A DNA stretch of 23,682 nt from a virus: the IMG/VR virus record IMGVR_UViG_3300044733_003528, positions 1 to 23,682 of that record. One strand, written 5' to 3'. Below, piece by piece: positions 607 through 23,682 of the stretch. The position numbers and the translations under genes were made by a program. Position 1 is the first letter of the stretch; every line of letters starts with the position of its first letter. Under the pieces are notes generated by a model. That model was not told the DNA's origin, searched no databases, and saw only the letters and a program-made list of their open reading frames with translations.

Positions 607-1452
607 TCAAATTATGTTGATTTTGGTGTGCATTTCTTCAAATTCAGCGAGCCATTGGCGACATTGTTGTACCTTTTGGTACATATTTTCAATCACTTGC
701 TCGTCTCTTGGTACCTTAAACTTGATAATGCGCTCCGTTTCGGGAATATCACCGAACGTCATATTGTTTTCGAGGCGCTCTACTGCCTTTTTATAGTCCG
801 CATTGTCCTCTGTTGCGGGGTTCATTAGGTAATAAATGCGCTTTTTCTCGCTGTTAATGATTTCATCGGGCATCGATACCAAGCAATAGGCTATTTCGGC
901 CTCGGTAGCCCCTGTCAGGGCCATATAACCCTGCACTTGGTAGAAATAATTGGAGTTGAGGGGTTGGCCTAGGTTGGCCAGTAGGCTTGCTCCGTCCCAC
1001 GATGACTTAATATCGATGATTTTGGTGGCATTTCCGGCTTCGTCACGAACCACAATGTCTGGGGTGCCCATTATGAAGTCGTTTTGGAAAAAGTCCTCGT
1101 TTTTAAGGTACTTTTGGCCGTCCAGACGCATTAAAAGCTTGATGCTATCACCCTCTACCGATACGCCCTTGATGGTGTACTTGCTTCTCTCTGATCCACC
1201 AGCGGTTTCTTTGCCGTATTTGTTAAAGAGGTAGACTTCTCTAAGGTAAGACTTAGCAGTATCGGATAGTTCTGGGGGAGCGTTCTTCTTCTCTAGTAGT
1301 CTTTGATAAGTGGCTTCTTGTTTTTCTGTGCGGGGAAGTGATGATAGTCGCTCCAGCTCATCAGCTTGTTTGTCCGTTAATATAGTTCCCTTACCGGGTG
1401 TCATAATTTTGCCTAAGCAAGAACACCTAATTTTAGTTTCGTTCCAGTTCAT
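607..1452 (-). CDS. PD-(D/E)XK exonuclease, YqaJ/Cas4-like
   Basis: A 281-residue protein. The nuclease core is GTPDIV (D132) followed by IIDIKSS (D147, K149), a typical PD-(D/E)XK layout. Downstream, YFYQVQGYMALTG has the glutamine and tyrosine common in YqaJ/RecB-like exonucleases. The early RCSCLGKIM resembles the start of viral recombinases that select substrate near the N-terminus. It likely resects double-stranded ends to give 3' single strands for the annealing protein encoded just upstream at 1493-2161, as in Red-type exonuclease/annealase pairs. The dyad at 1455-1470 lies 2 bases before the start codon and may control translation or transcription. Fold confidence is high; the exact subfamily is moderate. 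Confidence 0.8.
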   Translation of the reverse strand: MNWNETKIRCSCLGKIMTPGKGTILTDKQADELERLSSLPRTEKQEATYQRLLEKKNAPPELSDTAKSYLREVYLFNKYGKETAGGSERSKYTIKGVSVEGDSIKLLMRLDGQKYLKNEDFFQNDFIMGTPDIVVRDEAGNATKIIDIKSSWDGASLLANLGQPLNSNYFYQVQGYMALTGATEAEIAYCLVSMPDEIINSEKKRIYYLMNPATEDNADYKKAVERLENNMTFGDIPETERIIKFKVPRDEQVIENMYQKVQQCRQWLAEFEEMHTKINII

Positions 1453-1454
1453 TG

Positions 1455-1470
1455 TACGATAGTTTTCGTA
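1455..1470. promoter_or_regulatory. Second copy of the TACGAAAACT dyad, before the exonuclease gene
   Basis: Read on the minus strand it is TACGAAAACTATCGTA, one base different from the element at 55-70. It ends two bases before the exonuclease ATG (1452), so as RNA it would form a 5-bp hairpin over the ribosome entry region. No TAnnTTTG box was seen close by, which favours a post-transcriptional or autoregulatory role over a simple promoter operator. This is inference from position only. Confidence 0.45.
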
Positions 1471-1492
1471 GTTGTAATAGGTTGGTTTATAA

Positions 1493-2161
1493 TTACTTAC
1501 CTTTAAGTTCTCTTAGTTTTTGCTCATAAAGCGTTTGTACTTCGTGACTAATACTCTTACTATAAGCAATCTTTTGGTAAGTCTTTAGATCCTCTAGTGT
1601 TTGTACTTTCCTAATAGAATCCGGGATAGAGTCTATTTCTTCTTGGATGCTGGGTGCAGCGGGAACTTCTGACACTTCCTCTTCTACTCGGTTAAGGTAT
1701 TTACCAAAGAAGCCGCCTAATTGCTTTAGAGCGTTCTTGACAGCCATTGACGAGGCCTTTGGGGTGGCTAGTTCTAAGCCCTGAATGTTCGGGGAAGTCA
1801 CAGAAGCGATGCCGTGAGCGACGTGTTGGCCGTAGGAATAACCCAATGAGTATTCTGCGGTCACAGAGACGCTAAATTTGCCCGTTTTATCTTGGATGAT
1901 GATTGGGCTTGATATTTGGGCGATACCGCTCTCATAGCCAAATATACGCCTTGCAGCGGCCTCCATTAGATCCAGAGGCAATGTCTTGTAGGTGCCGTTT
2001 TTAAGTTGTGAGGGAAGTTCTAGCACCCACGACGCGGGCGGCTCGTACTTGTCTAATAATTCAAGGACGGTCTCAAGGGAGTCTGGAGAGGCCTCAAATT
2101 CGGCTATCTTAAGAAAGATAGGTTCTGCCTCATTTAAGAGGTCAAGAGTTGTTTGTGTCAT
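1493..2161 (-). CDS. Rad52-like single-strand annealing protein (putative)
   Basis: A 222-residue protein. I chose the ATG at 2161 because the upstream in-frame extension is hydrophobic, unlike the family, and overlaps the leader hairpin, while AAACAAACAACA lies just before this ATG. The middle segment around LPLDLMEAAARRIFG, followed by ATPKASSMAVKNALKQLGGF and FGKYLN, resembles the Rad52/ERF-type motif in which a helix reading A-K-x-A-L-K-x-L-G precedes the DNA-binding groove. The C-terminal third is acidic and low in complexity. Its position directly before an exonuclease gene supports the exonuclease-annealase pairing. It would coat resected strands and anneal them. Family assignment rests on one motif plus context; an unrelated recombinase type is possible. 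Confidence 0.6.
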   Translation of the reverse strand: MTQTTLDLLNEAEPIFLKIAEFEASPDSLETVLELLDKYEPPASWVLELPSQLKNGTYKTLPLDLMEAAARRIFGYESGIAQISSPIIIQDKTGKFSVSVTAEYSLGYSYGQHVAHGIASVTSPNIQGLELATPKASSMAVKNALKQLGGFFGKYLNRVEEEVSEVPAAPSIQEEIDSIPDSIRKVQTLEDLKTYQKIAYSKSISHEVQTLYEQKLRELKGK

Positions 2162-2170
2162 TGTTGTTTG

Positions 2171-2209
2171 TTTTTTTAATAAAACCGCCCAGTATAGAAA
2201 TACAGGCGG
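2171..2209 (-). terminator. Leader hairpin with T-tract, possible attenuator
   Basis: CCGCC (2185-2189) pairs with GGCGG (2205-2209), and inside it GTAT (2192-2195) pairs with ATAC (2200-2203) around AGAA. On the minus strand the stem is followed by TTTTATTAAAAAAA. It sits between the minus promoter (2232-2263) and the annealase start (2161), so it looks like an intrinsic terminator placed in the leader of the recombination block. This suggests control by readthrough or antitermination. Confidence 0.5.
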
Positions 2210-2231
2210 GGCCAAACTGCTTATGAAAAAG

Positions 2232-2263
2232 CAAATATAAACCCTTTCTAAGACCATTCCAAA
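2232..2263 (-). promoter_or_regulatory. Bacteroidetes-type promoter for the recombination block
   Basis: On the minus strand TTTG (2263-2260) is followed after 20 bp by TATATTTG (2239-2232). This matches the -33 TTTG / -7 TAnnTTTG pattern of the Bacteroidetes primary sigma factor. The predicted start is near 2225, giving a leader of about 60 nt that contains the hairpin at 2185-2209. A 5-6-5 dyad (TGCTT 2218-2222, AAGCA 2229-2233) overlaps the start region and could be an operator. Confidence 0.65.
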
Positions 2264-2344
2264 TTTTTTTTAGAAAAAGTTCGGGGAAGTCCTGCCGATC
2301 ATTAAAGTATCTTTATGCCTTGCGTTTTCATTGTTTGTTTGTTT

Positions 2345-2375
2345 ACCCCCTGCTATTTCTATAGCGGGGGTTTTT
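2345..2375 (+). terminator. Strong GC-rich hairpin with T-run
   Basis: ACCCCC (2345-2350) pairs with GGGGGT (2366-2371) and GCTAT (2352-2356) with ATAGC (2361-2365), with one bulged T and a TTCT loop. TTTTT follows at 2371-2375. It has intrinsic terminator form for plus-strand transcripts, although no plus-strand gene precedes it. Read on the minus strand it sits just before AAACAAACAAACAATG, so it could also shield a leader mini-ORF. Confidence 0.5.
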
Positions 2376-2402
2376 GGCGGCGGGTACGCTCTTGTAGGGG
2401 TA

Positions 2403-2431: not shown

Positions 2432-2707
2432 TGGGGTTGCGGGTTGCCTTGACTGGGTGGCCTTGTTTTTTTGCTTTGCCTTGTTGGTGTGGTTGCGCAA
2501 GTGCTGAGGGTGGCGGGCGGGGTGGGGTTGTTGCCCTTGTTGGTCCGATGTGTTGCGGGAAGTCGCGGGGCTGGTTGGGGGTCTCGCTTTGCCTTGTTAT
2601 ATATAGGGGGGGTGGGGGTATAGGGTCGCGGGAAGATACGCCGGTACTGATACCCTTTTGCTCTCTTTATTCTCTCTATCTTATAGGGTAGGGGGAAGTG
2701 GTGAATA

Positions 2708-2737: not shown

Positions 2738-2741
2738 CGGT

Positions 2742-3315: not shown

Positions 3316-3873
3316 TTAAAAGGGTAAATCTGTTTCTTCTTTGCTTACATCTTTTACAGGCTGCGCCACTTCTTCCCCGACAGCATTGCCCAGCCAGTTT
3401 TTCCAGTACTCTAATTGTTTCGCATTGTAGTACTTGGTTTCACCCTTAAAGGTTACTTTTTCTAGCTGGGGAAGATCTCCCGGATTATCTTTTGTGTGAG
3501 CGTGCTTTAAGTATTTGCCGTTCTGGGAAACAAAACAGGTTGCGGTCGTCTTTCCGTTTTCTTTAGAGTATGCGGGCTTGATAAACACTTCCCCTTTTGG
3601 GTTGCCGCTCTTAAGCGCATTACAAAAGTTTCTGAAATAGCCGCTATCTATTCGCATTTGCAAAATAAAGTTCTGGTCAACGTGGCTAATGTAGATGTTT
3701 GCCTTTTCGTATGGCTTTCCATCGTACTCGTCCTTTACAAATTCCACTTTGTCAATTCTTCCCCCTACACCATCGTAAGTTTCTACTTCACCTTGTTTGT
3801 TTTTGTGAACAAGCTTACCCTCTTTGATATTGAGGTAAATGTAGCTTCCTCCACCTTTTACTAATCCTGACAT
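3316..3873 (-). CDS. Phage single-stranded DNA-binding protein
   Basis: A 185-residue protein. It ends KEETDLPF, the acidic hydrophobic tail through which SSB proteins recruit replication and recombination partners. The N-terminal two thirds are beta-rich and aromatic (SYIYLNIKEGKLV, ANIYISHVDQNFILQMRI, GEVFIKPAYSKENGKTTATC), consistent with an OB fold although diverged from bacterial SSB. A flexible segment then leads to the tail. It would cover the single strand at replication forks and resected ends. It lies in a leftward operon with the primase-helicase and near the exonuclease-annealase block. The DLPF tail makes the call strong despite weak similarity to cellular SSB. Confidence 0.82.
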   Translation of the reverse strand: MSGLVKGGGSYIYLNIKEGKLVHKNKQGEVETYDGVGGRIDKVEFVKDEYDGKPYEKANIYISHVDQNFILQMRIDSGYFRNFCNALKSGNPKGEVFIKPAYSKENGKTTATCFVSQNGKYLKHAHTKDNPGDLPQLEKVTFKGETKYYNAKQLEYWKNWLGNAVGEEVAQPVKDVSKEETDLPF

Positions 3874-4100: not shown

Positions 4101-4305
4101 CTTTTTTTAATTTTAATCGGTTAATAAGTTCTTCTATGTGAGGGAAGTTCTCGCAGAGGTAGGTCATCTCCGCACTTATCTTAAACACTCTTCTTGCTTG
4201 CTCTTCCGCGACTTCCCCCTCAACACCAGTAATTAGATTTCTGTATTTATTTTCACCTAAGTATCGGTAGTATGTATTATTTTGTACGTTTCTTACTATT
4301 GCCAT
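4072..4305 (-). CDS. Small hypothetical protein, 77 aa
   Basis: A 77-residue protein with a short beta-rich start (VRNVQNNTYYRYLGENKYRN) and a helical, charged C-terminal half (CENFPHIEELINRLKLKKDE). I do not recognise a family. The start codon lies 2 bases after the primase-helicase stop codon, and its end overlaps the next gene by 29 bases, so it is embedded in the operon and very likely translated. Its role in replication is suggested only by position. Confidence 0.6.
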   Translation of the reverse strand: MAIVRNVQNNTYYRYLGENKYRNLITGVEGEVAEEQARRVFKISAEMTYLCENFPHIEELINRLKLKKDEDTTNSGS

Positions 4306-4307
4306 TA

Positions 4308-6218
4308 TTAAAAAGATATTTCACTTCCAGATTCATCTCTATACGGAAGCCATTGATTAGATATTTCAGCCTGTGTTATATTATCTGGGTTGTGGGAAGA
4401 CTTGGACCTCTCTGCTTCATATTTATCACAAAAAACTTTTCTTGTAATCGGGTCAATAAACCTTTTAGTTTTCCAATCTAAATATAAATCGAAGTGGCCA
4501 AGTTGACCTCCAGTTCTTTTTCTTTTAACCTTCTGTATATATATCTCAACCTCACAACTGTTTTTATCTTCGTGAAATCTGGGTCGATAGTAAGATATTA
4601 TTTGGTCAACCTTATTACCCCACATTGCTCCGCCAGCTAAATCATACATATCAGCAACAGGAAGAGACTTGTCTTCTCGATAGCTCGGGCTTTTAGGGTG
4701 AGCAATAATATTGTAACAAATGCCATTAAGAAGCGCAAATCTTTTTATATCCTTTAATATACTCGACAAATACTGGTCTTCTCTTTGATAAGATTTCTGC
4801 ATTGAGTCTAATTGATTAAATGGATCAATCATAACACCATCTAATCCCTTTTTCAAAATCAAATAACGAAACTTATCGTGTACAGACTCAATATCGTGTT
4901 CGTTTTCTGGATAGACAAAGAAAATGTGATTACCAATAAACTTACAAGCCTCCGTATATTCTTCTTCAGTTAAATTAGAGGTCCACTTGCCAGTATACAT
5001 TTCAACTAAGTCGTCATAAAAATCATTTGCAGGATAATTCTCTGGACTAAATATCGCCCACTTCCAGCCATCCCATATACTCTTTGTAAGCATTAATTGT
5101 AGCATAAAGGTTGACTTACCCGCATTTGCATATCCAGTACATAAATTTATATCCCCTTTTTTCCATCTAAAAAAGTTGTCCATTTCGCCAAAATTGGTTG
5201 GCGGAGCGACCTGAACACCCTTCTTAAAGTTTTCCAACATCGAAGAAAATATGTCTTCAACATAAAAAATCCCGTCAACTGGAATTTCCTGCGAACTCAA
5301 TACAAGCGATTTAAGGGCCTCTTTTCCAAAGTGGCACAATACCTCATTAAAGTCTTTTGGTGCGAAATTTGGGCCGTTTCCGTGCGTCTGGTGCGATTGT
5401 AGGATTTCCCATCTGACAGTTCGGCACTTTTCCACGCCAAGTCGGCGGATTAGCTCGTCCCGAAGCGCCTGACCCGGCAGGTCGTTGTCGGTCGCAATTA
5501 CAAATTCTTCAATAGTGCTTAAATAGTCCGAACTGTTGTCGAGGTACTCAAGTCGGTTGTTTCCAGAAACCGCTCCGTTCGGAACCGAGATTACCGCAAA
5601 TCGACCGAGTTCGTGTTCGACGATTTCCCCGTCCTCGTTGCAAACCGCATCGTAGTCCTGACCAAATCCAGCTTCGTATGCCGAAAGCGCATCGATTTCA
5701 CCTTCGACGATGATGGCACACCTGCGGCCCTCAAGCGATTGCATTCCGAAAAAAATCAATTCAGCATCCTTGATGAGCTTGAAATTTTTCTTTCCGTCCC
5801 GGTATTTCGCATTGACAATTTCGTTGTTTCGGATGTAGGGGAAGACGATGCAGCGTTCCTTCTGCTGTGTCTGAGGCATCCACTCTTCCTTGCCGTGAAT
5901 GAAAAACTTTTTAAGCGTTGTTTCGCTAATTCCCCGACCATCAAAATATTTTTTTACCCTGTCATTCAGCTCGATGCTCTTGAGCATATCCTGACTTGGT
6001 CTTTCAAATTTTTTCAATGTGCTCTTGGGAACAAACGATCTTACGTTTCCCATCCAACCGCAGTTGTGGCAGTTGTAGTCGCCCTGCGAAATGTTCACCG
6101 ACAAGCAAGGGTCTGTTTTTTTCTTCCGACCCGCTGAGCATTGCGGGCAGGTTGTTTTTTCTTGTCCGCTGCGTTTGCGAAGTCTGATGCCGAGTTTTGT
6201 GAGTTGGTCAAAATACAT
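4308..6218 (-). CDS. Bifunctional DNA primase-helicase, T7 gp4-like
   Basis: A 636-residue protein with full-length architecture. The zinc ribbon has CPQC (C24, C27) and CHNC (C50, C53). The TOPRIM domain shows IIVEGEIDALSA (catalytic E172), ATDNDLPGQ (D244, D246) and a later KDFNE. A RecA-like hexameric helicase domain has Walker A TGYANAGKST (361-370), Walker B VMIDPFNQLD (462-471) and the sensor IIAHPKS near 504-510, as in T7 gp4. It unwinds DNA and makes primers at the phage fork. It is the largest gene of the leftward replication operon. The start codon lies 11 bases after the stop of the DUF4373 gene. Expected motifs are all present; nothing suggests truncation. Confidence 0.92.
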   Translation of the reverse strand: MYFDQLTKLGIRLRKRSGQEKTTCPQCSAGRKKKTDPCLSVNISQGDYNCHNCGWMGNVRSFVPKSTLKKFERPSQDMLKSIELNDRVKKYFDGRGISETTLKKFFIHGKEEWMPQTQQKERCIVFPYIRNNEIVNAKYRDGKKNFKLIKDAELIFFGMQSLEGRRCAIIVEGEIDALSAYEAGFGQDYDAVCNEDGEIVEHELGRFAVISVPNGAVSGNNRLEYLDNSSDYLSTIEEFVIATDNDLPGQALRDELIRRLGVEKCRTVRWEILQSHQTHGNGPNFAPKDFNEVLCHFGKEALKSLVLSSQEIPVDGIFYVEDIFSSMLENFKKGVQVAPPTNFGEMDNFFRWKKGDINLCTGYANAGKSTFMLQLMLTKSIWDGWKWAIFSPENYPANDFYDDLVEMYTGKWTSNLTEEEYTEACKFIGNHIFFVYPENEHDIESVHDKFRYLILKKGLDGVMIDPFNQLDSMQKSYQREDQYLSSILKDIKRFALLNGICYNIIAHPKSPSYREDKSLPVADMYDLAGGAMWGNKVDQIISYYRPRFHEDKNSCEVEIYIQKVKRKRTGGQLGHFDLYLDWKTKRFIDPITRKVFCDKYEAERSKSSHNPDNITQAEISNQWLPYRDESGSEISF

Positions 6219-7009: not shown

Positions 7010-7759
7010 TTAGATCACCGAAACACCCCTTTCTGATACCACTTCTGAAGCCTCCTGATTAGCCTTTTGTATAGCATATCTTATATCCTTCTTTTCCATA
7101 TAATAGAAGGCTAATGCAGCTAAGAATGTGTCTCCTGCTCCTGATACATCGCTTGTTATTTTCTTTATGCCGGGGAAGTCTTGATTGTCATAGCGCGCAC
7201 CATTTCCACCTCGAGTAATGATAACTTTTTCCTTATATAGCATTGCTATTGGTTTGTTAAGCTCGTATTCCGTTTCATTAAGCTTGATAAAATCATAGTA
7301 ATCAAGTATGCCACTATTGAGATCCTTTTTTGAGTCAAGAAAAGCGATGCAATCATCTTTTTTCTCTTGGCAAATTTTACACAAATCCGACTTTGATAAA
7401 AACCCCTTATCGTAATCAGAAACTAATATGCAGTCTGCACTTTTAATAAGCTTCAGGAGGTAGCTTGTAAATTCTATTGGCTGAGCTGTATCGTTTTCGT
7501 CAATACGAATTAAATAATGATTTGATTTTTCTTCCACATATCTTGTCTTCTTAATGTCGCTGCTAGAGAAGTGGCCCACAATAGATGCCTTTTTCTCAAT
7601 AAGAGAAAACAAGTTGTTGTATACGTTTTGCGCCATACCTCCATTTTCAACCGTTTTTAGCGGCTTAAATATTGGCACAGGGGCTTCTGGGCTGAGCCTT
7701 GTAACTTCCCCGTACACAAAAACATCCTTACATTTTTCTCCAATGACCAAGAAGTTCAT
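7010..7759 (-). CDS. PfkB-family sugar kinase, heptose-7-phosphate kinase-like
   Basis: A 249-residue ribokinase-fold enzyme resembling the kinase domain of HldE/RfaE. Matching segments are YGEVTRLSPEAPVPIFK (16-32), NGGMAQNVYNNL (39-50), VSDYDKGFL (113-121), LNETEYE (160-166) and the catalytic VSGAGDTF (205-212, base D210). HldE kinase phosphorylates D-glycero-D-manno-heptose 7-phosphate at C1. The protein is somewhat shorter than the roughly 310-residue bacterial domain. It stands alone, with the adenylyltransferase half encoded separately at 8540-8941. Its start overlaps the HAD gene by ATGA (7756-7759). Family sure; the exact sugar substrate is inferred. Confidence 0.82.
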   Translation of the reverse strand: MNFLVIGEKCKDVFVYGEVTRLSPEAPVPIFKPLKTVENGGMAQNVYNNLFSLIEKKASIVGHFSSSDIKKTRYVEEKSNHYLIRIDENDTAQPIEFTSYLLKLIKSADCILVSDYDKGFLSKSDLCKICQEKKDDCIAFLDSKKDLNSGILDYYDFIKLNETEYELNKPIAMLYKEKVIITRGGNGARYDNQDFPGIKKITSDVSGAGDTFLAALAFYYMEKKDIRYAIQKANQEASEVVSERGVSVI

Positions 7760-9219: not shown

Positions 9220-9700
9220 TTTGCATATAATTTAAGATGATGTCGGGGAAGTGACGACGCTCATCATCGGCTAATTCTGGATAAACCATAATCAAGCGAT
9301 CACGAACTTCTGGGAAACAACCCCACTTCGCTATATCTTCCCACGCACTATTATCAAATTTGTAGTGACAATCTGGACACAGCTCAATCCAGTTGTTTTC
9401 ATTTGTAGCCACACTTGGGGCTACTGTTTTTCTTTTAGCAAGTAAGTGGCAAATAGAGTGAATGGCCAATTCATAGACTTTTGTCGTGGTCGGCTTTCCA
9501 CACTCCGCACAATTGCCACTCATTTGCTTTTGGCAGTTCTTGTAGAACTTAACCAGTTCTGTGTCTTCCCCCGCACGCTCCTTTCTCTCTTCTTTTTCTT
9601 GCTTTAGTTTTTTGGCAGATTTTTTTGGGATAGTGTATTTCTTAGGCGCTTTGGGAAGTCCTGCCTCAGCCTTTAATTTCCTAATTTGTTCAATACCCAT
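9209..9700 (-). CDS. HNH-type zinc endonuclease-like protein
   Basis: A 163-residue protein. The first 60 residues are very basic and helical (KKSAKKLKQEKEERKERAGE). A zinc-bound nuclease-like core follows: CAEC (C64, C67), IHSICHLLAKRK (H81, H85), NENNWIELCPDCHYKFD (N102-N103, C108, C111, H112). That order of cysteine pair, histidines, asparagine and CxxCH fits HNH folds with a structural zinc. It may be a nicking or homing enzyme, or a recombination nuclease of the NinG kind. It is the first gene of the long leftward operon, read from the promoter at 9756-9786. Catalytic activity is unproven because the HNH motif is divergent. Confidence 0.65.
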   Translation of the reverse strand: MGIEQIRKLKAEAGLPKAPKKYTIPKKSAKKLKQEKEERKERAGEDTELVKFYKNCQKQMSGNCAECGKPTTTKVYELAIHSICHLLAKRKTVAPSVATNENNWIELCPDCHYKFDNSAWEDIAKWGCFPEVRDRLIMVYPELADDERRHFPDIILNYMQNEN

Positions 9701-10600: not shown

Positions 10601-11397
10601 TGACAAATGTCTTAAAATATAAAACATCTTCTCCGGCGGGCGACCTAATTAGTTTTCTGGCAGGGGTAAAGAAGATGTGGGAGGATACGGGGAAGAAGGG
10701 TGTTATTTATCAGCGCCTTGATATGCCGGGGGCGGGAACGGATACAAGTATACACCCCTACAAAAACAAATATGACGAGCCTGTTTGTATGAATAGGTAT
10801 ATGTATGAAATGCTATACCCCTTGATAATCTCCCAAGAGTATGTAGAGGATTATGTCGTGTATGCGGGGGAAGAGGCGGATGTCGATTTCGACCTTATCA
10901 GAATGGAGCGCTATACTAATCAGCCGAGGGGTAGCCTAAATCGCTGGTTCAATTACGTTTTCCCTCAAATGGCATCGGACCTGTCTATTCCGTGGCTCAC
11001 GATTTCCCCGAACAAAAACGACAAAATAATCATCAACTTTACCCAGCGATACCGAAACCACTTGATTAACTACTTCTTCTTAAAGGAATATCAAGATCGA
11101 ATTGTCTTTGCTGGATTAAAGGAAGAACGCGACCTGTTTTGTTCCACATGGAACCTTGATATTGAGCATCTTGAGGTATACGACTTTTATCAATTAGCTA
11201 CCCTAATTGCGGGCTGCAAGTTCTTTATGGGCAACCAAAGTTTTTGCTTTCAGGTAGCCGAGGCGGTCAAGGCTCCGCGTATCTTAGAGATATTTCCAAT
11301 GATGCCAAATGTTGTCCCATCAGGCAACTTTGCATACGACTTTTACCACCAAGGAAGCTTAGATTTTTACTTTCATAAACTACTAAAAAATGAATAG
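10600..11397 (+). CDS. Glycosyltransferase-like protein, GT9/GT-B type
   Basis: A 265-residue protein. The C-terminal half is laid out like heptosyltransferase-type GT-B enzymes: a strand (RIVFAGLKEERDLFC) followed by VYDFYQLATLIAGCKFFMGN and QSFCFQVAEAVKAPRILEIF, the GT9 segment that reads 'G-x-D-S-G-x-x-H-x-A-x-A-x-x-x-P'. Here the usual GxDSG aspartate is replaced by MGNQS, which weakens catalytic prediction. The N-terminal half is less recognisable (GDLISFLAGVKKMWEDTGKK, then GVIYQRLD). It opens the rightward block with the Nmad1 and fusion glycosyltransferase genes, and overlaps the next gene by 8 bases. Likely sugar transfer or sugar recognition. Confidence 0.65.
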   Translation: MTNVLKYKTSSPAGDLISFLAGVKKMWEDTGKKGVIYQRLDMPGAGTDTSIHPYKNKYDEPVCMNRYMYEMLYPLIISQEYVEDYVVYAGEEADVDFDLIRMERYTNQPRGSLNRWFNYVFPQMASDLSIPWLTISPNKNDKIIINFTQRYRNHLINYFFLKEYQDRIVFAGLKEERDLFCSTWNLDIEHLEVYDFYQLATLIAGCKFFMGNQSFCFQVAEAVKAPRILEIFPMMPNVVPSGNFAYDFYHQGSLDFYFHKLLKNE

Positions 11398-11931: not shown

Positions 11932-12053
11932 GAAAAGTAAGAGCTAAACAGCTTAAAAGAATTGCAAAGTCGATAACCGCGTCTTCCCCAGAGATGATGA
12001 GAAAAGTATACCGCAGACTTAAAAAAACGTGGAGTGCGAACAAGTCTAAATAG
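11928..12053 (+). CDS. 41-residue strongly basic peptide
   Basis: The ATG at 11928 overlaps the previous stop (ATGA). The product is rich in Arg and Lys (MRKVRAKQLKRIAKSITASS, then PEMMRKVYRRLKKTWSANKS and K), without acidic clusters. It resembles short basic proteins of the type R-K-x-x-K, Y-R-R-L-K-K found in phage operons, perhaps DNA- or RNA-binding. It overlaps the following glycosyltransferase start by 20 bases. Confidence 0.6.
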   Translation: MRKVRAKQLKRIAKSITASSPEMMRKVYRRLKKTWSANKSK

Positions 12054-13470
12054 CGTAACCCTTATCTGTGTTGACTGTTCAAGACACGCAGAAGCATTGG
12101 CGGCTATACGAAAAAGTATGGCTGAGTGTGATTTTGCGGCGGTCAAGTTTTTGTCCGATAGGCAGTTTTATTTTGAGGGTATTGAGTCTGTAATTATACC
12201 TAAGATAAGCTCTAAGGAAGAGTACTCAGAGTTTATAATAAAGAAGCTAATCAAGTATTTTGATACAGAATTTGTATTGTTAATACAGCACGATGGGTAT
12301 ATACTGAACGGGAAGTCTTGGCTGCCAGAATTTTTGGATTACGACTACATTGGCGCTCCGTGGCTTTACTCTGACGGGAAAAATGTGGGTAATGGCGGTT
12401 TTTCTATCAGGTCCAAAAAGCTTCAAGATATATTGGCTGCAGATGATTTTATTTTTGCTTCGGATCCCGAAGATCAAGCAATAGGTCGCCTATACCGAGA
12501 TTATTTAATAAAAAAGTACTCGATTAAATTTCCTTCTGAGGACATTGCTGATAAGTTCGCCTACGAACTTCGCACACCTATTTACGACACATTCGGGTTT
12601 CACGGCAAGTTTCATAAACCCTTTCAAAAGACGGTCATTATCAAGCGAAGTGCGGCGATGGGTGATGTTATTTTGGTTGAACCCGTATTGCATTACTTTC
12701 ACAAAAAAGGCTATCGGGTGGTTATTGATACACCTGAGCAATTCTATATGCTTTTTGTGAGCCATTACTTCCCCGTACACCACATAAGCAAAATAGACGC
12801 AAGGCTTATTCCCGGAGCCGAACACTATAACCTTGATATGGCTTACGAGGCGTTGCCTAAACAGAACAGGTTGCTTAGTTACTATCAGTTTTGCGGCATC
12901 AAGGACGGGGAAATGAGAAACCCTAAATTATCGGTAGGTTTCCAACTAAGTCAATACACCAAATTATTTCCTAAATATTGCATCATACACCTTGAGGGCA
13001 TAAGACAATCTGGAAGGAATGTTTTTGGGGTGGACTGGGAAAATGTGGTAGCCAATATCCAAGCAAGGGGCTATTCGGTATTTCAAGTTGGTAAACGGAA
13101 TGTGCCTCTTATCAAGAACGCTATCTATCTTAACACAATGAACGAGAATTTTTTGTGTTATGCGGTGGGAAGTGCCGACTTCTTTATCGGAATAGATAGT
13201 GGGGTAAGCCACGTTGCGTCTGCCTTTAATGTGCCGTCAATCCTGTTTTTTGGCAATACCAACCCAGAGATTGTCCACGCCGACCTTTCTAATAAAGTTG
13301 TCCTGACAAAAGTTGTTTGCGAAAAGCCCCACTGCTGGCACGAACAAATCGGGGTGGAAAGTAGCGAGTGTTACATTGACCCACAACTTCCCCCTTGCGC
13401 AAAATACACCACAAAAGAAGTTTTAGAAGCAATAGATAAAATAATCCAAAATGAGAATAACAACCTATAA
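12034..13470 (+). CDS. Two-domain glycosyltransferase: DUF5672 fused to GT9 heptosyltransferase-like
   Basis: A 478-residue fusion. Residues 1-190 match DUF5672: FVLLIQHDGYILNGKSWL (80-97), FLDYDYIGAPW (100-110) and VGNGGFSIRSKKL (118-130), a GT-A-like domain. Residues 197-478 are GT9-like: VIIKRSAAMGDVILVEPVLH (201-220) and ADFFIGIDSGVSHVASAF with NVPSILFFGNTNPE (381-412). GT9 enzymes transfer heptose from ADP-heptose. A cysteine-rich tail (CEKPHCWHEQIGVESSECYI) may bind a metal. The start is GTG at 12034, overlapping the basic-peptide gene by 20 bases, because SVTLICVDC begins the domain a few residues later; no ATG fits before residue 29. It ends overlapping the methyltransferase gene by 20 bases. 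Confidence 0.83.
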   Translation: MRTSLNSVTLICVDCSRHAEALAAIRKSMAECDFAAVKFLSDRQFYFEGIESVIIPKISSKEEYSEFIIKKLIKYFDTEFVLLIQHDGYILNGKSWLPEFLDYDYIGAPWLYSDGKNVGNGGFSIRSKKLQDILAADDFIFASDPEDQAIGRLYRDYLIKKYSIKFPSEDIADKFAYELRTPIYDTFGFHGKFHKPFQKTVIIKRSAAMGDVILVEPVLHYFHKKGYRVVIDTPEQFYMLFVSHYFPVHHISKIDARLIPGAEHYNLDMAYEALPKQNRLLSYYQFCGIKDGEMRNPKLSVGFQLSQYTKLFPKYCIIHLEGIRQSGRNVFGVDWENVVANIQARGYSVFQVGKRNVPLIKNAIYLNTMNENFLCYAVGSADFFIGIDSGVSHVASAFNVPSILFFGNTNPEIVHADLSNKVVLTKVVCEKPHCWHEQIGVESSECYIDPQLPPCAKYTTKEVLEAIDKIIQNENNNL

Positions 13471-14936: not shown

Positions 14937-15602
14937 ATGCTCGCTGTAGAGGGAAGAGTTGTTATTAGCGTTGATTTAGAAAGTAAGAATAGCCATACCT
15001 TTTCGGATGGCACAAAGATTAGATTAGAGAGGGACTATAACAACCTAAACCAAAGAGAAACAAAGCCCGTCAATGCGACTGTAATTGACGGCGAAGGAAT
15101 TAAGTCTGGCAGTCAAATCTTGATCCACCCTAATTTTACTCACGAAACATACAAGATAAATGACAGGACCAGACTTTCTGGTGAAGTCGAGGGAAGTGAT
15201 ATTAAGTATTTTTCAATACCAATGGAAAAATGCTTCGCGTGGCTGGATGGGGAAACGTGGAAGCCGCTTAAGACCTTTGAGTTTGGCCTTCGTGTATACA
15301 AGCCCTACGAAGGAATGATACAGGGTATTGAGCCTAAGTTGATACCTGATGTATTGTACGTTACAACAGGGGAGTTGGCTGGAAATATAGTGCAAACCCT
15401 AAAGGCTTGCGATTATGAAATTATCTTTCAAGGAATTAACGGACAAGAAGATAGATTGATACGCTTTCGCCACTTCCCCGACGAGGACCACGAAAGAGAA
15501 GAAGTGATAGCAATGAGAGATGATTTAACGGAGCGATACAATAAGGGAGAGATACTAATTGGATTATCTCCGTCTACCGCTAAAACAATCAACGATGACT
15601 GA
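14937..15602 (+). CDS. Hypothetical phage protein, 221 aa, beta-rich
   Basis: A 221-residue acidic protein. The first 90 residues (GRVVISVDLESKNSHTFSDG, then PVNATVIDGEGIKSGSQILI) look like a small beta barrel with a passing resemblance to GroES-type co-chaperonins (strand-glycine-strand with 'V-x-x-G-x-G-x-x-x-G'). The second half repeats a similar pattern (EKCFAWLDGETWKPLKTFE), and it ends with a charged region HFPDEDHEREEVIAMRDDL. I cannot assign a function; a co-chaperonin or head-associated protein are possibilities. It has the A-rich leader AACAAACAAACACAAA and overlaps the next start by 8 bases. Confidence 0.6.
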   Translation: MLAVEGRVVISVDLESKNSHTFSDGTKIRLERDYNNLNQRETKPVNATVIDGEGIKSGSQILIHPNFTHETYKINDRTRLSGEVEGSDIKYFSIPMEKCFAWLDGETWKPLKTFEFGLRVYKPYEGMIQGIEPKLIPDVLYVTTGELAGNIVQTLKACDYEIIFQGINGQEDRLIRFRHFPDEDHEREEVIAMRDDLTERYNKGEILIGLSPSTAKTINDD

Positions 15603-16058: not shown

Positions 16059-18136
16059 TGACAACTGAGTTAATATACGGTACACAATGTCGGCTACCAG
16101 AACTTCCCCCGCATACTAAAATACTCAACTTTGACAAGAAAGTAGAGGATCAAATGTGGGTTAGGGAAGAACTGCCCGACTATTTTGAAAAGATTGAGTA
16201 TACTAAGACGGGCGACTTAGTTCTTACCGAAGAACAGGAAGAATACGCTATTAGAGAACTTGAAAGATGTAAAAAGGGTCTCTGGGTTTACATTTTAGGC
16301 AAACCCTATTTTATTACCAAGAAGTATTATTTTTATCTTCAATGGTGGACACTTGAGGACGGATCTAGGCCAGAATATCGAGATGCCGATAGGAGATATT
16401 TTACATTCTTAGAACATTGGGAGAATATACCTTGGGCGCTTGGGGTTATTAGATCAAAGAAACGACGCGAAGGTGCGTCTTCCCAAGCAACGTCAAATCT
16501 TGTCTACGAGGCAATATTTTACAAGAACTCTAACTGTGGTCTGGTGTCTAAGTCTAACGAGGACGGGCGGGCCACATTTACGGAGATGGTCGCTTATGGG
16601 TATAGGCAATTACCAGCCTTTCTAAAGCCAAAACAAATTAACCGAGAAGATAGTGTAACAGAGCTTGTTTTTGCTCAAAAGGTTTCTAATGTCCGGGAAG
16701 GAACGGCTGCCACCCAAAAAGAAGATGAAGGCAACAGGTCAAAGATTAACTACCGGGCCCCTGTATTAAACGCCTATGACCGTGGTCGTATGAGCCGCCT
16801 ACTGCTGGATGAGTTTGGTAAACTTGAAAAAGAGGTGCAGGCCTCTCAGTTGTTTGCGATTATATCCAAGACGCTGGTAAAGGGTGTTAAAAGAGTAGGG
16901 TTTGTTGAAATGCCCTCTACCGTTAATAAGCTTTCTAAGGGAGGTTCTGAGTTTAAGTTGTTGTGGGAAAACGCGGATCTCGGAAAGAAGTCGCCGACTA
17001 TCAACCGCCTTGTCCGTTATTTTAGCCCCGCCTACGACGGCTACGAGGGTTTTATTGATAAATACGGGTTCTCTGTCATCAATTCCCCGACACCCGAACA
17101 AAAAGCTTATTTAGTAGAAAAGTGGGTAGTAAAGGATGAAGACGGAAATACCATAAGTGAGATTAGCGAAGAAGATATTGACTTAGGCTCAAAGGCATAT
17201 ATAATAAAGAGGCGGGAGGGAAGAACTGGTGATGACTTAGAGGAAGAGATAAGGATGAACCCCTGCACAGAGGTAGAAGCCTTTATGTCGGCAAACGCCG
17301 ATTGTATTTTCAATGTTGTGAAACTCAATGAGCAAAGTGAAAAATTAAAGCAAAGTCCCGTCTACAAGCGCAAGATATTATTTTTCAGAGATGAAGTAAC
17401 TCAAACAGTCCGCTGGAGAGATGCCACAGATTCGGAAAGTAATTTTTGTTGGGAATTTATAGGCGACCTCAAACCAACCGATGCAAACAAGCACTACTGG
17501 GACACAGGGATAAAAAAGCCCGGAAGGGCGGATATAGGAGTGATAGGGGTGGACGGATACTCAAACTCACAAGGCGGTAAGAAGTACGGCTCAAAGGCTT
17601 CGGCGTGGGTATACCTTAAATACGATATTCGAGACCCAGAAAACACGGGCCTCTTTACCGCGCACCTTTACGGAAGACCGCAAGAAAAGGACGACCTGCA
17701 CAATCAGGTTATGCTGGCTGCCGAATACTTGGGATTTCAATGCTATTACGAATTTGTGGCCGATGATTATTACACCTATTTTAAGAATAGGGGAAAATTA
17801 GGGTATCTGGCAAAGTTCCCAATGAACGCGATTGACCCCAATAAGCGAAAAGCTGCCGAAAGACATTACGGCTTCCCAATTACAGACTTTGCAATGACTA
17901 AGCAGAATGATGCGATGATTAGCTATATTGAACACTATTGCGAAAAAATATACTGGCTTGAACTTATCGAGGACTTAAAAAGTTACGATCCTCAAAAGCG
18001 TACACCTAGCGACCGATCCGTTTCGGCTATGATTGCCCTCGTTGCAGGGCTTGAGCCTATCTATAAGCCAGCACCTCCCCAAACACCGTTAATTAAAATT
18101 TATCCGAATTACGGCACCGCAAACGCCGGAAGGTAG
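16058..18136 (+). CDS. Terminase large subunit
   Basis: A 692-residue protein. The ATPase domain has a deviant Walker A around RSKKRREGASSQ (132-143) and Walker B RLLLDEFGK (247-255, with D251 and E252). The nuclease domain has the first acidic strand ADIGVIGVDGYSNSQ (491-505, D499), a second aspartate in EFVADDYYTYFKNRG, and a last one in TPSDRSVSAMIALVAGL near the C-terminus, as in RNase H-type terminase nucleases. It cuts concatemeric DNA and powers filling of the head through the portal. Complete, at a normal length for this type. The start overlaps the stop of the 43-residue gene. Confidence 0.85.
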   Translation: MTTELIYGTQCRLPELPPHTKILNFDKKVEDQMWVREELPDYFEKIEYTKTGDLVLTEEQEEYAIRELERCKKGLWVYILGKPYFITKKYYFYLQWWTLEDGSRPEYRDADRRYFTFLEHWENIPWALGVIRSKKRREGASSQATSNLVYEAIFYKNSNCGLVSKSNEDGRATFTEMVAYGYRQLPAFLKPKQINREDSVTELVFAQKVSNVREGTAATQKEDEGNRSKINYRAPVLNAYDRGRMSRLLLDEFGKLEKEVQASQLFAIISKTLVKGVKRVGFVEMPSTVNKLSKGGSEFKLLWENADLGKKSPTINRLVRYFSPAYDGYEGFIDKYGFSVINSPTPEQKAYLVEKWVVKDEDGNTISEISEEDIDLGSKAYIIKRREGRTGDDLEEEIRMNPCTEVEAFMSANADCIFNVVKLNEQSEKLKQSPVYKRKILFFRDEVTQTVRWRDATDSESNFCWEFIGDLKPTDANKHYWDTGIKKPGRADIGVIGVDGYSNSQGGKKYGSKASAWVYLKYDIRDPENTGLFTAHLYGRPQEKDDLHNQVMLAAEYLGFQCYYEFVADDYYTYFKNRGKLGYLAKFPMNAIDPNKRKAAERHYGFPITDFAMTKQNDAMISYIEHYCEKIYWLELIEDLKSYDPQKRTPSDRSVSAMIALVAGLEPIYKPAPPQTPLIKIYPNYGTANAGR

Positions 18137-18193: not shown

Positions 18194-20638
18194 ATGCAGG
18201 ATTTCTCTGCTCAACCCTTAAAGTCGTTTCAGCTTGACCCTAAGCTAACTATCAAAGATAAGTCAGACTGGGAATACGGAAAACGACTCGCTATATATAT
18301 CGATTCTACTATAAGGGGTGGAATATCAAGTTATTTCTTTGTTCGCAATGCTCGTTGGAGAACTAATCGCGGTTACGCTAATGGTCGTATTCCGATGAGC
18401 AAGTTTCAAGACTTGCTTGAGTTCAATGGTAAGGTCAACTATCTTAATATCAACTGGCAATCAATTAACATTGTTAATCGTATTATCTCCGGCTTGGTAG
18501 GTAGATGGATGGCTCGTAGCGAAAAAATACAAGTAACTGCCACCGATAGTATTTCTAATAAGCAAAAGAAAGAAGAGTACGAACAACTAGAGTTCATCCT
18601 TGAGAATAGAGCGATGCTGGAACGCCTGCAAGAAGAGTCGGGTGTTCCGCTCTTGCCACAAGGAGAAGAACTTCCCGAAGACAAAGAAGAACTCAAGCTT
18701 TGGCAATCTCAATTCCAGCGCTTGCCAGAAGAGATTGGTTACGAGCTTGCCTGTAATGATGTATTAGCTGCTAATGGCTGGTTTGATACATTAAAGGAAA
18801 AGATGCTGCACGACAGCGCTGAAACAGGTTTTGTTGGTACCTATACATGGATGGATGACCAAGGTGTTATTCACGTTGAGTGGCTGAAGCCTGAAAATTG
18901 TTTTTATTCCTACTCTTCCTATCCAGATTTTAGAGATACGACGTGGCGCGGTGTAATTCGCACCTATAAAATTAGCGAACTCAGAAGAAAGTATGGCGTT
19001 GAGTTTGGTGGAAAGATTAGCGAAGAAGAGTTATGGAAGATGGCTCAGTTTTCTAAGGAGTTCCAATTATACGACAATATCACTTGGCTTACCGAGTGGA
19101 ATGTAACCTTCCTTCGCCCTTATGACGAGTGGAACATTGACGTAATTGAGTTTGAGCTAAAGACGGTTGATAGCGATGACTACACCGTTGTTACAACAAA
19201 GAAAAATAAGTCTACAATCGTTAAGAAAGGTAGACCCGATAAAACGGCTGAAAACGAAAAGCTTTTGTCGGATACAAAATGGAATATATACCGCGGGGTG
19301 TATTGCAGACCTACTAATACCGTTCTTGAGTGGGGCCTAAAGAAAAATATGATACGCCCGCAGGATCCGAAGGAAATTGGAAATGCCGAGTTCTCGTACA
19401 GCTTTTATATGGTGCAGAACTACGACATGACTTCCCTCGCCATCCCGGAAAAAATTCAAGAGCCAGTAGACCAGATGATTATTGCTCGTCTTCGCATGCA
19501 GCAATTAGTGGCAAAAATGAGACCTACTGGTTCGGCTGTAAACTGGGACGCCTTACAAAATATTGACTTTGGATTAGGAGACCAGAATAAAGGTATTGAC
19601 GTTAAAAAACTTTACGACCAAACAGGTGATATTTACTATCGCGGTCGTGATGCGGAGGGAAATCCTATCCCTGTGCCTATTCAGGAGTTAAGCAATTCAG
19701 GGTTCTTGGCCCAATTACAAGGTCTTATCTTATTATATGATAAGCACTACCAGATTTTGAAGGATGAGTTGGGGGAAGACCCGAACCTCATAGCCGCCGC
19801 TATTCAGCCCCGTGTTGCTGTTTCAAATATCAATACCGCTGAGCAGGTGGCCCAAAATGCTACCGATTACTTTTATTGGGCGTACACTAATTGTATGGCC
19901 GATACCGCGAAGAAAGTAGCATCGCTTCTTAAGACTTCTGTAATGTACGGGGCTAATGTGTATCGTGATATTGTTAAGAGCAATAGCGACGAAATCGCTG
20001 CCCGTATCTTTAATGCGAGAATACAAATGCTGCCCGATCAGTATGAGCTGGCCCGTTTTGAGGCTATGCTTAATCAGGCACTCGCATCTTCCCCCGACCT
20101 AGTACTATTCCTTGACCCCTTCCAAATAATGCGTGTAGCCAAGGAAGATGTGAAATTAGCAGAGGCCTTGTTTAGAAGAGCGCAAAAGAAGATGATTATT
20201 TACAATCAGACAAGAGCCGCAGAAAATCAACAAGCTACTATTCAAGGGCAAATCCAAGCCGCTCAAATAGCAGAGCAAGAAAAGAGGGCTACAAAGGAGC
20301 AGGAAGGCCTTATGGACATGAAACGTGCCGAGATGGCCGCCAATGCCCAAAATAAAACCGCTGTTCTTCAAATGGCGACCCAAGCCTACCTGAAGCACAT
20401 GGAAACTGGCCAGCCAATTCCTCCAGAAATTTTGCCGCTAATCCAAGCCGTAATGGAGAATGTAGCTTTATCCTCTGTCATATCTTCCCAAGAGAAACAA
20501 GAAGAAGTTCTTGCTAAAATGCAAATGGCAGCGGCAATGCAGCAACAACAGGGTGCGGGGGAAATGATGCCAGAAGGTGAAATGCCCGCCGAAGAGCAAA
20601 TGATGCAAGAACAACAACCACAACTTCCCCAACAATAA
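18194..20638 (+). CDS. Portal protein
   Basis: An 814-residue protein placed directly after the terminase. The central part has features of large P22-like portals: WQSINIVNRIISGLVGRWMA (residues about 91-110), a segment with KPENCFYSYSSYPDF, and VDQMIIARLRMQQLVAKMRP and PNLIAAAIQPRVAVSNINTA further on. The last 150 residues are helical and rich in Gln, Met, Glu and Ala, ending in a low-complexity tail (QQQQGAGEMMPEGEM), like the barrel and crown of such portals. It forms the twelve-subunit ring at one vertex for DNA entry. Call based on size, position and pattern; no single diagnostic motif exists. Confidence 0.78.
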   Translation: MQDFSAQPLKSFQLDPKLTIKDKSDWEYGKRLAIYIDSTIRGGISSYFFVRNARWRTNRGYANGRIPMSKFQDLLEFNGKVNYLNINWQSINIVNRIISGLVGRWMARSEKIQVTATDSISNKQKKEEYEQLEFILENRAMLERLQEESGVPLLPQGEELPEDKEELKLWQSQFQRLPEEIGYELACNDVLAANGWFDTLKEKMLHDSAETGFVGTYTWMDDQGVIHVEWLKPENCFYSYSSYPDFRDTTWRGVIRTYKISELRRKYGVEFGGKISEEELWKMAQFSKEFQLYDNITWLTEWNVTFLRPYDEWNIDVIEFELKTVDSDDYTVVTTKKNKSTIVKKGRPDKTAENEKLLSDTKWNIYRGVYCRPTNTVLEWGLKKNMIRPQDPKEIGNAEFSYSFYMVQNYDMTSLAIPEKIQEPVDQMIIARLRMQQLVAKMRPTGSAVNWDALQNIDFGLGDQNKGIDVKKLYDQTGDIYYRGRDAEGNPIPVPIQELSNSGFLAQLQGLILLYDKHYQILKDELGEDPNLIAAAIQPRVAVSNINTAEQVAQNATDYFYWAYTNCMADTAKKVASLLKTSVMYGANVYRDIVKSNSDEIAARIFNARIQMLPDQYELARFEAMLNQALASSPDLVLFLDPFQIMRVAKEDVKLAEALFRRAQKKMIIYNQTRAAENQQATIQGQIQAAQIAEQEKRATKEQEGLMDMKRAEMAANAQNKTAVLQMATQAYLKHMETGQPIPPEILPLIQAVMENVALSSVISSQEKQEEVLAKMQMAAAMQQQQGAGEMMPEGEMPAEEQMMQEQQPQLPQQ

Positions 20639-22029: not shown

Positions 22030-22031
22030 TT

Positions 22032-22463
22032 ATGGCAATAACAGCTAAAATCAGAATGTCAGGGGAAGAGGTGAAAGCCAAGACTTCCCTCACACCCGAA
22101 GAAATCCGCGATAGATTATTCTATTTTCACGATGCCGCACACGAATTTCATCAGCAAACTAAAGGCGGATGGGAACACGACGCGCTTGGTAAGTTATACG
22201 AGGGTCTAGAAGACTTCTCTGATGATATTCCAGAAAAGATGATGGGCTATATGGACGGCAAAAGACTTGGAGCCCTAGTTCGCATCCCTACTCCAAAATA
22301 TGGAGGACACGAGTCTTCTGTAAAGCTGGTTAAAGAGTTATTAGACTTCTCTTACGACTTATATGAATTTGCGTGCGAGAAAAAATTGCTTGACGTGGAA
22401 AATAGATCTCAAGAACTTTCTGGTCTTGCCGCAAAGACTATTTACCGCTTAACGCTTAGCTAA
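22032..22463 (+). CDS. Dps/ferritin-like protein (DUF5856-like)
   Basis: A 143-residue helical protein. FYFHDAAHEFHQQTKGGWEH (30-49) and DALGKLYEGLEDFSDDIPEK (50-69) followed by MMGY recall the Dps helix pair. His49, Asp64 and Glu68 have the same spacing as Dps ferroxidase residues H63, D78 and E82 of E. coli; H37 or H40 may supply the partner of H51. The counterpart of D67 is G53, so iron oxidation may be lost. Dps proteins bind and protect DNA or store iron. Here it lies among head genes, so it might be a virion component or protect DNA in the cell. Fold moderately sure; activity uncertain. Confidence 0.65.
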   Translation: MAITAKIRMSGEEVKAKTSLTPEEIRDRLFYFHDAAHEFHQQTKGGWEHDALGKLYEGLEDFSDDIPEKMMGYMDGKRLGALVRIPTPKYGGHESSVKLVKELLDFSYDLYEFACEKKLLDVENRSQELSGLAAKTIYRLTLS

Positions 22464-22483
22464 TTATTAACCAAATAGACTTT

Positions 22484-23682
22484 ATGTCAGAAAACAACAA
22501 CAACCAAGAACAGGTACAAGAAAACGTACAAAATGCTGCACAAGAAAATGTACAGCAACAGTCCTTTAATCCATTTTCGGATAACGCTTGGAGCGCTACG
22601 CCGGATTTTACAAACAATCAAGCTCCCGAAACCACATCTTCCCCCGACACTCAAGAAGAATACGAGGAAGAGATAGTAGACGCGGACGAGTGGTTAAAAG
22701 GACAATTTGGATGGGATAATGCCGATGCCGCGAGGGAAGAGATAGAGCAACTTCGTCAACTTCGCGATACCGCATCTTCCCCCGCAGAAATAGAATTTGC
22801 CAACGAACAAAGCGCAAAGTTCTTTAAGCTAATGCAAGAAGGTAAAGAAGACGACCTTTACAGCTTCTTAGAGAACAAAAAGAAATTCGATCGCCTTACC
22901 AGTATATCTGAGTTAGACACGCGGTCTGCTGCTGAGATTATCAAACTCAATATGCAGCAAAAGTACAAGGACTTAACTCCTAACGAAATTGAGTATAAGT
23001 TCAATAAGCAATTTTCTGTTCCCCAAAGACCCGCTCAAGGCGACTTGGAGACAGATGAAGAATATCAAGAAAAACTCTCTAATTGGGAGGCAAGAGTAAA
23101 GGACGTTGAAACAGAAATGTTCATCGAGGCTAAACTTGCCAAGCCCGAATTAGAGAAATTCAAAAACGAGCTAGTTCTCCCTGACGTACAATTTGAAACG
23201 GGACAACAAGGCTATGAGCCAACCCAAGAGGAATTGGATGCTCAATCGGCCCTGATGAACCAATTCAAGGAGTCAGCGATTGCTGCACTTTCTTCCTTTG
23301 ATGGCTTTAGCGTATCGGTAAAAGACGAGGAAGTTGAAATACCGCTATCTTATGCCGTATCAGATGAAGAGAAAATTGCAGTTGCTTCGCAAATTGAACA
23401 ATTTGCCGACGCTAATTTTGACGCCAATGTTGTGCTGGCAGAAAGATGGTTGAAAGATGACGGGAATGGAGGGTATAAATTAAATACCAATCAAATTATC
23501 CGCGACTTAACGCTCCTGCAGAGCGAAGGAAAAGTGAATCAGAAGTTTGTGAACGATGCGGCCTCAAAAAGGCTTGCGGAGTACATTAAAAAGACGAGTA
23601 ACGTAAGCGTGACTTCCCAGACAGCCCAATCAACTTTCTCAGGCAATAACAAATCAGACTTAGACCGACAAATTGAGTACAT
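22484..23682 (+). CDS. Acidic coiled-coil protein, possible capsid scaffold (incomplete)
   Basis: Opens at the ATG at 22484 and runs past the window end for at least 399 codons without a stop. The start is low in complexity (MSENNNNQEQVQENVQNAAQ). The rest is acidic and helical, with EYEEEIVDADEWLKGQFGW, EIIKLNMQQKYKDLTPNEIE and DLETDEEYQEKLSNWEARVK. No enzyme motif. An acidic, helical, Gln/Glu-rich protein after the portal and before the expected major capsid protein fits a scaffolding protein. The C-terminus, where a scaffold would bind the capsid protein, lies outside the window. Confidence 0.6.
   Translation, partial: MSENNNNQEQVQENVQNAAQENVQQQSFNPFSDNAWSATPDFTNNQAPETTSSPDTQEEYEEEIVDADEWLKGQFGWDNADAAREEIEQLRQLRDTASSPAEIEFANEQSAKFFKLMQEGKEDDLYSFLENKKKFDRLTSISELDTRSAAEIIKLNMQQKYKDLTPNEIEYKFNKQFSVPQRPAQGDLETDEEYQEKLSNWEARVKDVETEMFIEAKLAKPELEKFKNELVLPDVQFETGQQGYEPTQEELDAQSALMNQFKESAIAALSSFDGFSVSVKDEEVEIPLSYAVSDEEKIAVASQIEQFADANFDANVVLAERWLKDDGNGGYKLNTNQIIRDLTLLQSEGKVNQKFVNDAASKRLAEYIKKTSNVSVTSQTAQSTFSGNNKSDLDRQIEY

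Follow-up and report, generated by a model that had tools for sequence, protein, structure and literature searches.

A selected, Chi-like DNA word in a phage genome fragment is co-distributed with a phage exonuclease/annealase subfamily

Introduction

What reads the G-rich octamer GGGGAAGW that recurs throughout a 23,682-base stretch of viral DNA (IMG/VR record IMGVR_UViG_3300044733_003528; the whole stretch is called the window below)? A first-pass annotation, made from the letters alone, had proposed a Chi-like or genome-shaping motif. In bacteria, the RecBCD/AddAB enzymes are known to resect DNA ends under Chi-type control, and lambda exonuclease is the classic partner of an annealase. As far as we know, the exonuclease/annealase pairs of phages are taken to be blind to sequence, lambda exonuclease pausing apart. 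The window covers part of the genome of a podovirus-type phage that looks virulent. Because the isolate phages with related terminases (<30% identity) infect Flavobacterium, Cellulophaga, Tenacibaculum, and Maribacter, its host is probably an uncultured member of the Bacteroidota. We find that the word is real, under selection, strand-specific in its spacing, spread genome-wide, and distributed in step with a single subfamily of phage exonuclease and with a Rad52-like annealase.

Results

The word is in genuine excess in the window

Counted over both strands, GGGAAG occurs 54 times in the window (28 on the plus strand and 26 on the minus strand) and is followed by A or T in 50 of these cases, while GGGGAAG occurs 27 times (12 plus and 15 minus), always with A or T as the next base. 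The figures in the first-pass annotation, about 53 copies of GGGAAG with A or T after some 49 of them and about 27 copies of GGGGAAGW, agree closely with this recount. Markov models predict 7.6 (order 0), 12.0 (order 1), 12.8 (order 2), 19.1 (order 3), and 34.9 (order 4) copies of GGGAAG. The excess is intact through order 3 and shrinks at order 4 because that model, which already includes GGGAA and GGAAG, contains most of the word. GGGAAG is the most enriched 6-mer of the window at each order tried, and no unrelated word matches it. At order 2, GGGGAAGT is found 14 times against about 0.7 expected and GGGGAAGA 13 times against about 1.0.

A synonymous-codon shuffle within the 36 gene models of the window gave 14.7 copies of GGGAAG (standard deviation, 3.5; maximum, 30) against the 49 seen in coding DNA, and 3.8 copies of GGGGAAG (maximum, 10) against 25. 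The word lies in several frames and on both strands, its reversed form (the letters of GGGAAG backwards) occurs once, and it is absent from relatives of similar composition. A compositional or codon artifact, in whose favor one can cite the part of the excess that the order-4 model absorbs, is refuted by these controls and retains next to no probability; the earlier view that codon use cannot account for the copies was correct. The excess of GGGAAG is real.

The octamer sits within a longer, asymmetric site

We modeled the site from aligned flanks with a position matrix over an order-3 background. Expectation-maximization fitting on two contigs (L128 and L120) was pulled toward codon periodicity, so a hard-threshold version was used. 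The consensus is asymmetric, carries about 17 to 18 bits, and consists of a T-rich stretch followed by approximately KGYSG-GGGAAG-W-N-R-Y-G-R. Upstream, positions from about -14 to -6 are T-rich, with K-K/G at -5 and -4, Y at -3, and a preference for G at -1; downstream of GGGAAG come W at +6, R at +8, Y at +9, G at +10, and R at +11. Above 10 bits there are 60 sites in the window, compared with 3 in the reversed sequence and 0 to 2 in motif-negative relatives, and the single-mismatch neighbors of GGGAAG are barely enriched. GGGGAAGW, initially taken as the word itself, is indeed enriched, but the full asymmetric site extends beyond it on both sides, with flanks that differ between phage clades.

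Sites are strand-specific in spacing and conserved

Every motif-positive phage has about 2.4 to 3.1 sites per kb counting both orientations, or roughly one per 350 bases, which corresponds to about one per 700 bp on each strand and more than 100 per genome. In 13 whole contigs, the sites are mostly intragenic and balanced in orientation, whichever way the gene runs; hardly any 2.5-kb bin is without a site, and we found neither strand domains nor a strand skew along the direction of replication. In the window, 28 copies of GGGAAG are opposite to the gene, 21 run in the same direction, and 5 are intergenic. The tilt toward the template strand that had been put at about 31 to 18 is thus visible there (28 to 21) but is weaker than claimed, and the whole contigs have no orientation bias.

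In all 14 phages, or nearly all, same-strand neighbors are depleted at distances of less than 100 bp (pooled, about 0.04 compared with 0.11 expected), whereas neighbors on opposite strands show no depletion. Convergent pairs at 21 to 40 bp are in about 3-fold excess in clade A; the raw excess consists partly of orthologous copies (57 raw pairs, 20 distinct). A 4-bp periodicity of the pair distances was rejected, as it was mostly gone once orthologous pairs were removed (P = 0.015).

In 16 pairs of relatives with 75 to 86% DNA identity, GGGAAG was retained at 47 to 76% of aligned occurrences, compared with 19 to 51% for permuted control hexamers. Site losses between relatives are mostly point changes, and an insertion element was dropped as a candidate for this reason. 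A transcription pause site, to which the downstream YG bears a likeness through the RNA polymerase pause consensus, was dropped because site orientation ignores transcription. We read this behavior as purifying selection on the sites as a strand-specific signal that needs no more than one copy every several hundred bases. The genome-shaping part of the first proposal holds in the form of a strongly selected DNA word.

The word follows an exonuclease/annealase cassette rather than the phage lineage

Among relatives with terminases at least 78% identical to that of the window, the word is the top or a near-top hexamer, with the exception of one short, weak contig (L025). Relatives at 52 to 70% identity are without it, and a second set at 40 to 43% has it again. 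In long clade A and C contigs, extended matches number 35 to 64, compared with 1 to 4 in reversed controls; the clade D form, GTNNGGGAANWNNY, scores 65 versus 1, 56 versus 0, and 75 versus 2 for word and control. The motif-positive phages have the core GGGAA(G)W in common, and the flanks differ by clade. On a 60-row terminase tree, the word trait needs at least two changes, and a single clade for all motif-positive phages is rejected (approximately unbiased test, P = 0.00016). Sister phages that lack the motif include L091, L139, and L136. Pattern scans of viral contigs for the word in unrelated phages returned only relatives of the known clades plus one contig, L359, whose apparent excess disappeared under the full matrix.

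At the left end of the window lie genes for an exonuclease, an annealase, and a RusA-type resolvase (Table 1). Homology of the first to phage exonucleases is seen with phrog_5715 and with PDB entry 3k93, "phage related exonuclease" (profile match, E = 3e-28); the name YqaJ gets no support from Pfam. For the annealase, the Pfam Rad52 match is just under the curated cut-off, and Foldseek relates its AlphaFold model to human RAD52 and yeast Mgm101 (probability 1.00, E = 5e-7), so that it is predicted to have the RAD52 fold.

A search of viral contigs by annealase protein homology, blind to the word, found 21 loci in clades A, C, D, and E, and all 21 are rich in GGGAAG (370 copies against 85 expected, compared with 73 against 86 for the reversed word). 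The exonuclease search also took in motif-negative versions, with a gap in identity between 54% and 43%. GGGAAG is enriched 4.2-fold (control, 0.85-fold) at the 25 loci of at least 54% identity and is not enriched at the 54 loci of at most 43%, where the ratio is 0.92 without an annealase, 0.32 with a weakly similar one, and 0.88 with a diverged one. At the loci L446 to L482 (exonuclease at about 38 to 39%, annealase weakly similar), GGGAAG is depleted, with 8 copies versus 25 expected, the reverse of what the window shows. No clear words of their own were found for other exonuclease subfamilies in G416, G419, G423, G424, and G418.

On the exonuclease tree, every motif-positive row falls on one side of a branch (81/95). 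The window and the clade D/E phages share 41 to 43% identity in terminase and 54 to 60% in exonuclease, while the window and the motif-negative phage G423 share 55% and 31%, respectively. Because a single exonuclease group spans both phage clades, the cassette and its word apparently moved between them; in the simplest history, the word would have arisen with the cassette in the receiving genome. Early comparisons for gene linkage by BLAST, hidden Markov model, and profile-profile searches on partial contigs found none, since the genome end with the cassette is missing from most of those contigs. Annealase and exonuclease are both present at all 21 loci of the annealase search and RusA at most of them; of 22 cassette loci, 20 have RusA. 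RusA does not track the word and is not the gene linked to it, because phmmer also finds homologues in the motif-negative phages G420, G419, G423, and G416; the RusA of G420 is a closer match than the RusA of the motif-positive G004.

The word is not enriched in the bacterial genomes sampled

Neither GGGAAGWNNYG nor GTNNGGGAANTNNT is enriched in 395 Bacteroidota genomes, a sample that covers part of the phylum. A search with GGGGAAGWNNTG in 299 genomes of one Bacteroidota order found nothing near phage density (typically 2 to 12 per Mb, compared with about 600 to 1,000 per Mb in the phages). In the most asymmetric Bacteroidota genomes (G308, G389, G202, and G269), GGGAAG reaches only 1.2 to 1.6 times expectation.

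Other features of the window

The coordinates of the genes and sites are collected in Table 1.

Table 1. Cassette genes, sites, and related features of the window (positions from its first base)
Feature	Position	Orientation	Remark
RusA-type Holliday-junction resolvase	91..558	-	Pfam PF05866, E 7e-12; third cassette gene
Phage exonuclease (PHROG "exonuclease"/RecE-like family)	607..1452	-	phrog_5715, E 1e-38
Rad52-like single-strand annealing protein	1493..2257	-	Pfam Rad52, E 1e-3; start probably internal, ~2152
Small protein, acidic tail ending DLPF	3316..3873	-	single-strand-binding-protein-like by inspection of translation only
G-rich non-coding segment	2270..2707	+	4 GGGAAG sites, all + orientation
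Site core GGGGAAGT	1332..1339	+	21 bits
Site core GGGGAAGT	1791..1798	+	exact word and matrix
Site core GGGAAG	2012..2017	+	25.0 bits, best in window
Site core GGGGAAGT	2283..2290	+	exact word and matrix
Site core GGGAAG	2557..2562	+	21.4 bits
Site core GGGGAAGT	2692..2699	+	exact word and matrix
Site core GGGGAAGA	3371..3378	-	exact word and matrix
Site core GGGGAAGA	3468..3475	+	exact word and matrix
Site core GGGGAAGT	3587..3594	-	exact word
Site core GGGGAAGA	3757..3764	-	exact word and matrix
Site core GGGGAAGT	4211..4218	-	21.7 bits
Site core GGGGAAGA	5838..5845	+	exact word and matrix
Site core GGGGAAGT	7172..7179	+	exact word and matrix
Site core GGGGAAGT	7704..7711	-	exact word and matrix
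Site core GGGGAAGT	9245..9252	+	22.2 bits
Site core GGGGAAGA	9564..9571	-	exact word and matrix
Site core GGGGAAGA	10689..10696	+	exact word
Site core GGGGAAGA	10867..10874	+	24.3 bits
Site core GGGGAAGA	11982..11989	-	exact word and matrix
Site core GGGGAAGT	12767..12774	-	24.8 bits
Site core GGGGAAGT	13386..13393	-	exact word and matrix
Site core GGGGAAGT	15472..15479	-	exact word and matrix
Site core GGGGAAGT	16102..16109	-	23.1 bits
Site core GGGGAAGA	19772..19779	+	exact word and matrix
Site core GGGGAAGA	20087..20094	-	24.9 bits
Site core GGGGAAGT	20623..20630	-	22.5 bits
Convergent site pair	22062..22090	+ core at 22063, - core at 22089, 26 bp apart	same gene keeps pair in relatives
Site core GGGGAAGA	22637..22644	-	22.8 bits
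Site core GGGGAAGA	22775..22782	-	21.6 bits

The G-rich segment lies between early genes, its top strand is extremely G-rich, and its one-way sites are unlike those in the rest of the window; it is possibly an origin or a regulatory region. The small protein at 3316 to 3873 has no match to a Pfam or PHROG family. Six contigs that carry the cassette (L386, L388, L391, L392, L400, and L404), drawn from three phage clades and from different metagenomes, are perfect palindromes. All six end alike: the center lies just beyond RusA, at a point that corresponds to position 1 of the window, its left end, and the end sequences are ...TTGATTaTCA...TTTTGCA|TGCAAAA or TACA|TGTA. This suggests a real genome terminus, either a hairpin end or a head-to-head junction, rather than random fold-back chimeras.

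The clade A/C phages encode a DUF5856 protein (PHROG "starvation-inducible" family; positions 22032 to 22463 of the window), and the clade D/E phages encode a ferritin-like protein in the structural module (L173, 872 to 1369). Sugar-nucleotide genes at 7010 to 8941 and 12034 to 14053 encode a PfkB-type kinase, a cytidylyltransferase, and cupin-like, HAD-like, and heptosyltransferase-type glycosyltransferase proteins; a surface or sugar modification by the phage is possible. The window also strongly avoids GAATC/GATTC (5 copies versus 50 expected), TTTAAA (2 versus 60), and CATGA (3 versus 35; order-1 Markov model), a pattern to be expected under restriction or methylation pressure.

Discussion

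We consider it an even call whether the phage's own exonuclease/annealase machinery recognizes, in an orientation-dependent way, a site with GGGGAAGW at its core, which would make that site a functional analogue of Chi. Either the exonuclease by itself or the two proteins in a complex would read the site while resecting the 5' strand of double-strand ends. On meeting it in the right orientation, the enzyme would pause, be attenuated, or hand over, and so leave a 3' single strand for the annealase. More speculatively, and beyond the present data, phage ends might in this way be spared and recombined while site-free DNA of the host or a competitor is degraded further. An exonuclease that reads a word during resection has a precedent in lambda exonuclease, which pauses strand-specifically at a G-rich motif, GGCGATTCT, with the core GGCGA (PMC7496540). 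For lambda, no genome-wide over-representation of that motif is reported there. A further step, which we put forward tentatively as possible rather than probable, is that a horizontally mobile exonuclease/Rad52-annealase cassette reads the genome-wide word as "self" and that a genome acquiring the cassette is rewritten by selection to carry it.

Several observations weigh against a site read by this cassette. Word and cassette are linked by correlation across two phage clades, so that the 25 loci are not independent, and another gene at the same genome end could be responsible instead. A single motif-positive exonuclease group is recovered in 78% of bootstraps, which is moderate, and the exonuclease reached no Pfam family. 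Diverged annealases occur without the word in L478/L479, L429, and L431, so that having an annealase of this fold is not enough to predict it. Finally, known Chi has neither such extended flanks nor an excess of convergent pairs at 20 to 40 bp.

The likeness to Chi of RecBCD/AddAB (GCTGGTGG in Escherichia coli, with variants in other species) is nonetheless extensive: both are short, G-rich, asymmetric words that are over-represented across the genome in both orientations, are spaced strand-specifically, and are tied to exonuclease-driven recombination. Chi, too, is over-represented in some phages (PMC3784561). Whereas Chi pairs with a helicase-nuclease, the phage word is linked to a phage exonuclease and a Rad52-like annealase, and the phage site is longer, degenerate, and denser (about 2.8 per kb, compared with 0.2 per kb for Chi in lambdoid phages). 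It is quite unlikely, in our estimation, that the word is the Chi of a host AddAB or RecBCD which the phages over-represent for protection. Lambdoid phages without RecBCD inhibitors do this with E. coli Chi (PMC3784561), and the form of the word, its genome-wide presence in both orientations, and the arrival of two phage clades at the same core would fit. A host Chi should be over-represented in the host chromosome, and none of the roughly 690 Bacteroidota genomes sampled, which may not include the true hosts, showed this; the flanks vary with the phage clade, and the word follows a phage gene subfamily, a linkage that a host enzyme leaves unexplained. The Chi idea of the first-pass annotation therefore survives for an asymmetric, genome-wide word in both orientations, but with a phage-encoded system in place of host RecBCD/AddAB.

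Unlikely, though not negligibly so, is a site bound by a phage-encoded DNA-binding protein that organizes, packages, or silences the genome like a stoperator or nucleoid protein, with the cassette as a passenger marker of the clades. An asymmetric extended site with clade-specific flanks would suit such a protein, the convergent pairs suggest cooperative binding, and in cluster A mycobacteriophages the stoperators (L5/TipsytheTRex repressor) show that a monomer can bind numerous asymmetric sites scattered over a phage genome (PMC9283540). Stoperators, however, number about 20 to 26, are 13 bp long, and point in the direction of transcription from positions in promoters or in short gaps between genes (PMC9283540); the phage sites exceed 100 per genome and are mostly within genes, in both orientations and in near-equal numbers with and against transcription. 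Repulsion only between same-strand sites is not something a duplex binder would need, and apart from the cassette no other family common to both motif-positive clades and missing from the negatives was found by BLAST, hidden Markov model, or profile-profile searches of these incomplete contigs. The 17-bp repeats of cluster O mycobacteriophages are likewise dispersed (more than 30 copies, about one-third intragenic), of unknown function, and lost by point changes (PMC4351075), but they have perfect dyad symmetry, whereas the phage word is asymmetric, degenerate, and far denser, and convergent pairs are only a minority of its sites. Very unlikely, to our minds, is a drive of the kind seen with uptake signal sequences and DNA uptake sequences (USS/DUS), in which word-bearing copies are preferentially captured in phage-phage recombination with no benefit to the phage. 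The anatomy matches well: USS/DUS have a strong core with an AT-rich flank, no orientation bias, spacing more even than random, close inverted pairs, an origin by point mutation rather than insertion, and subclade variants (PMC1626085). USS/DUS, however, are chromosomal words of competent bacteria, the word here is phage-only and was not found to be abundant in the Bacteroidota genomes sampled, and a function also explains its conservation.

If the word is indeed a recognition site for the phage's own exonuclease/annealase machinery, a virus can carry a self-recognition code and impose that code on its own genome, and phages would gain a self/non-self rule for DNA degradation. The evolution of a Chi-enzyme pair would then be testable across clades A, C, D, and E, in which the flanks have diverged.

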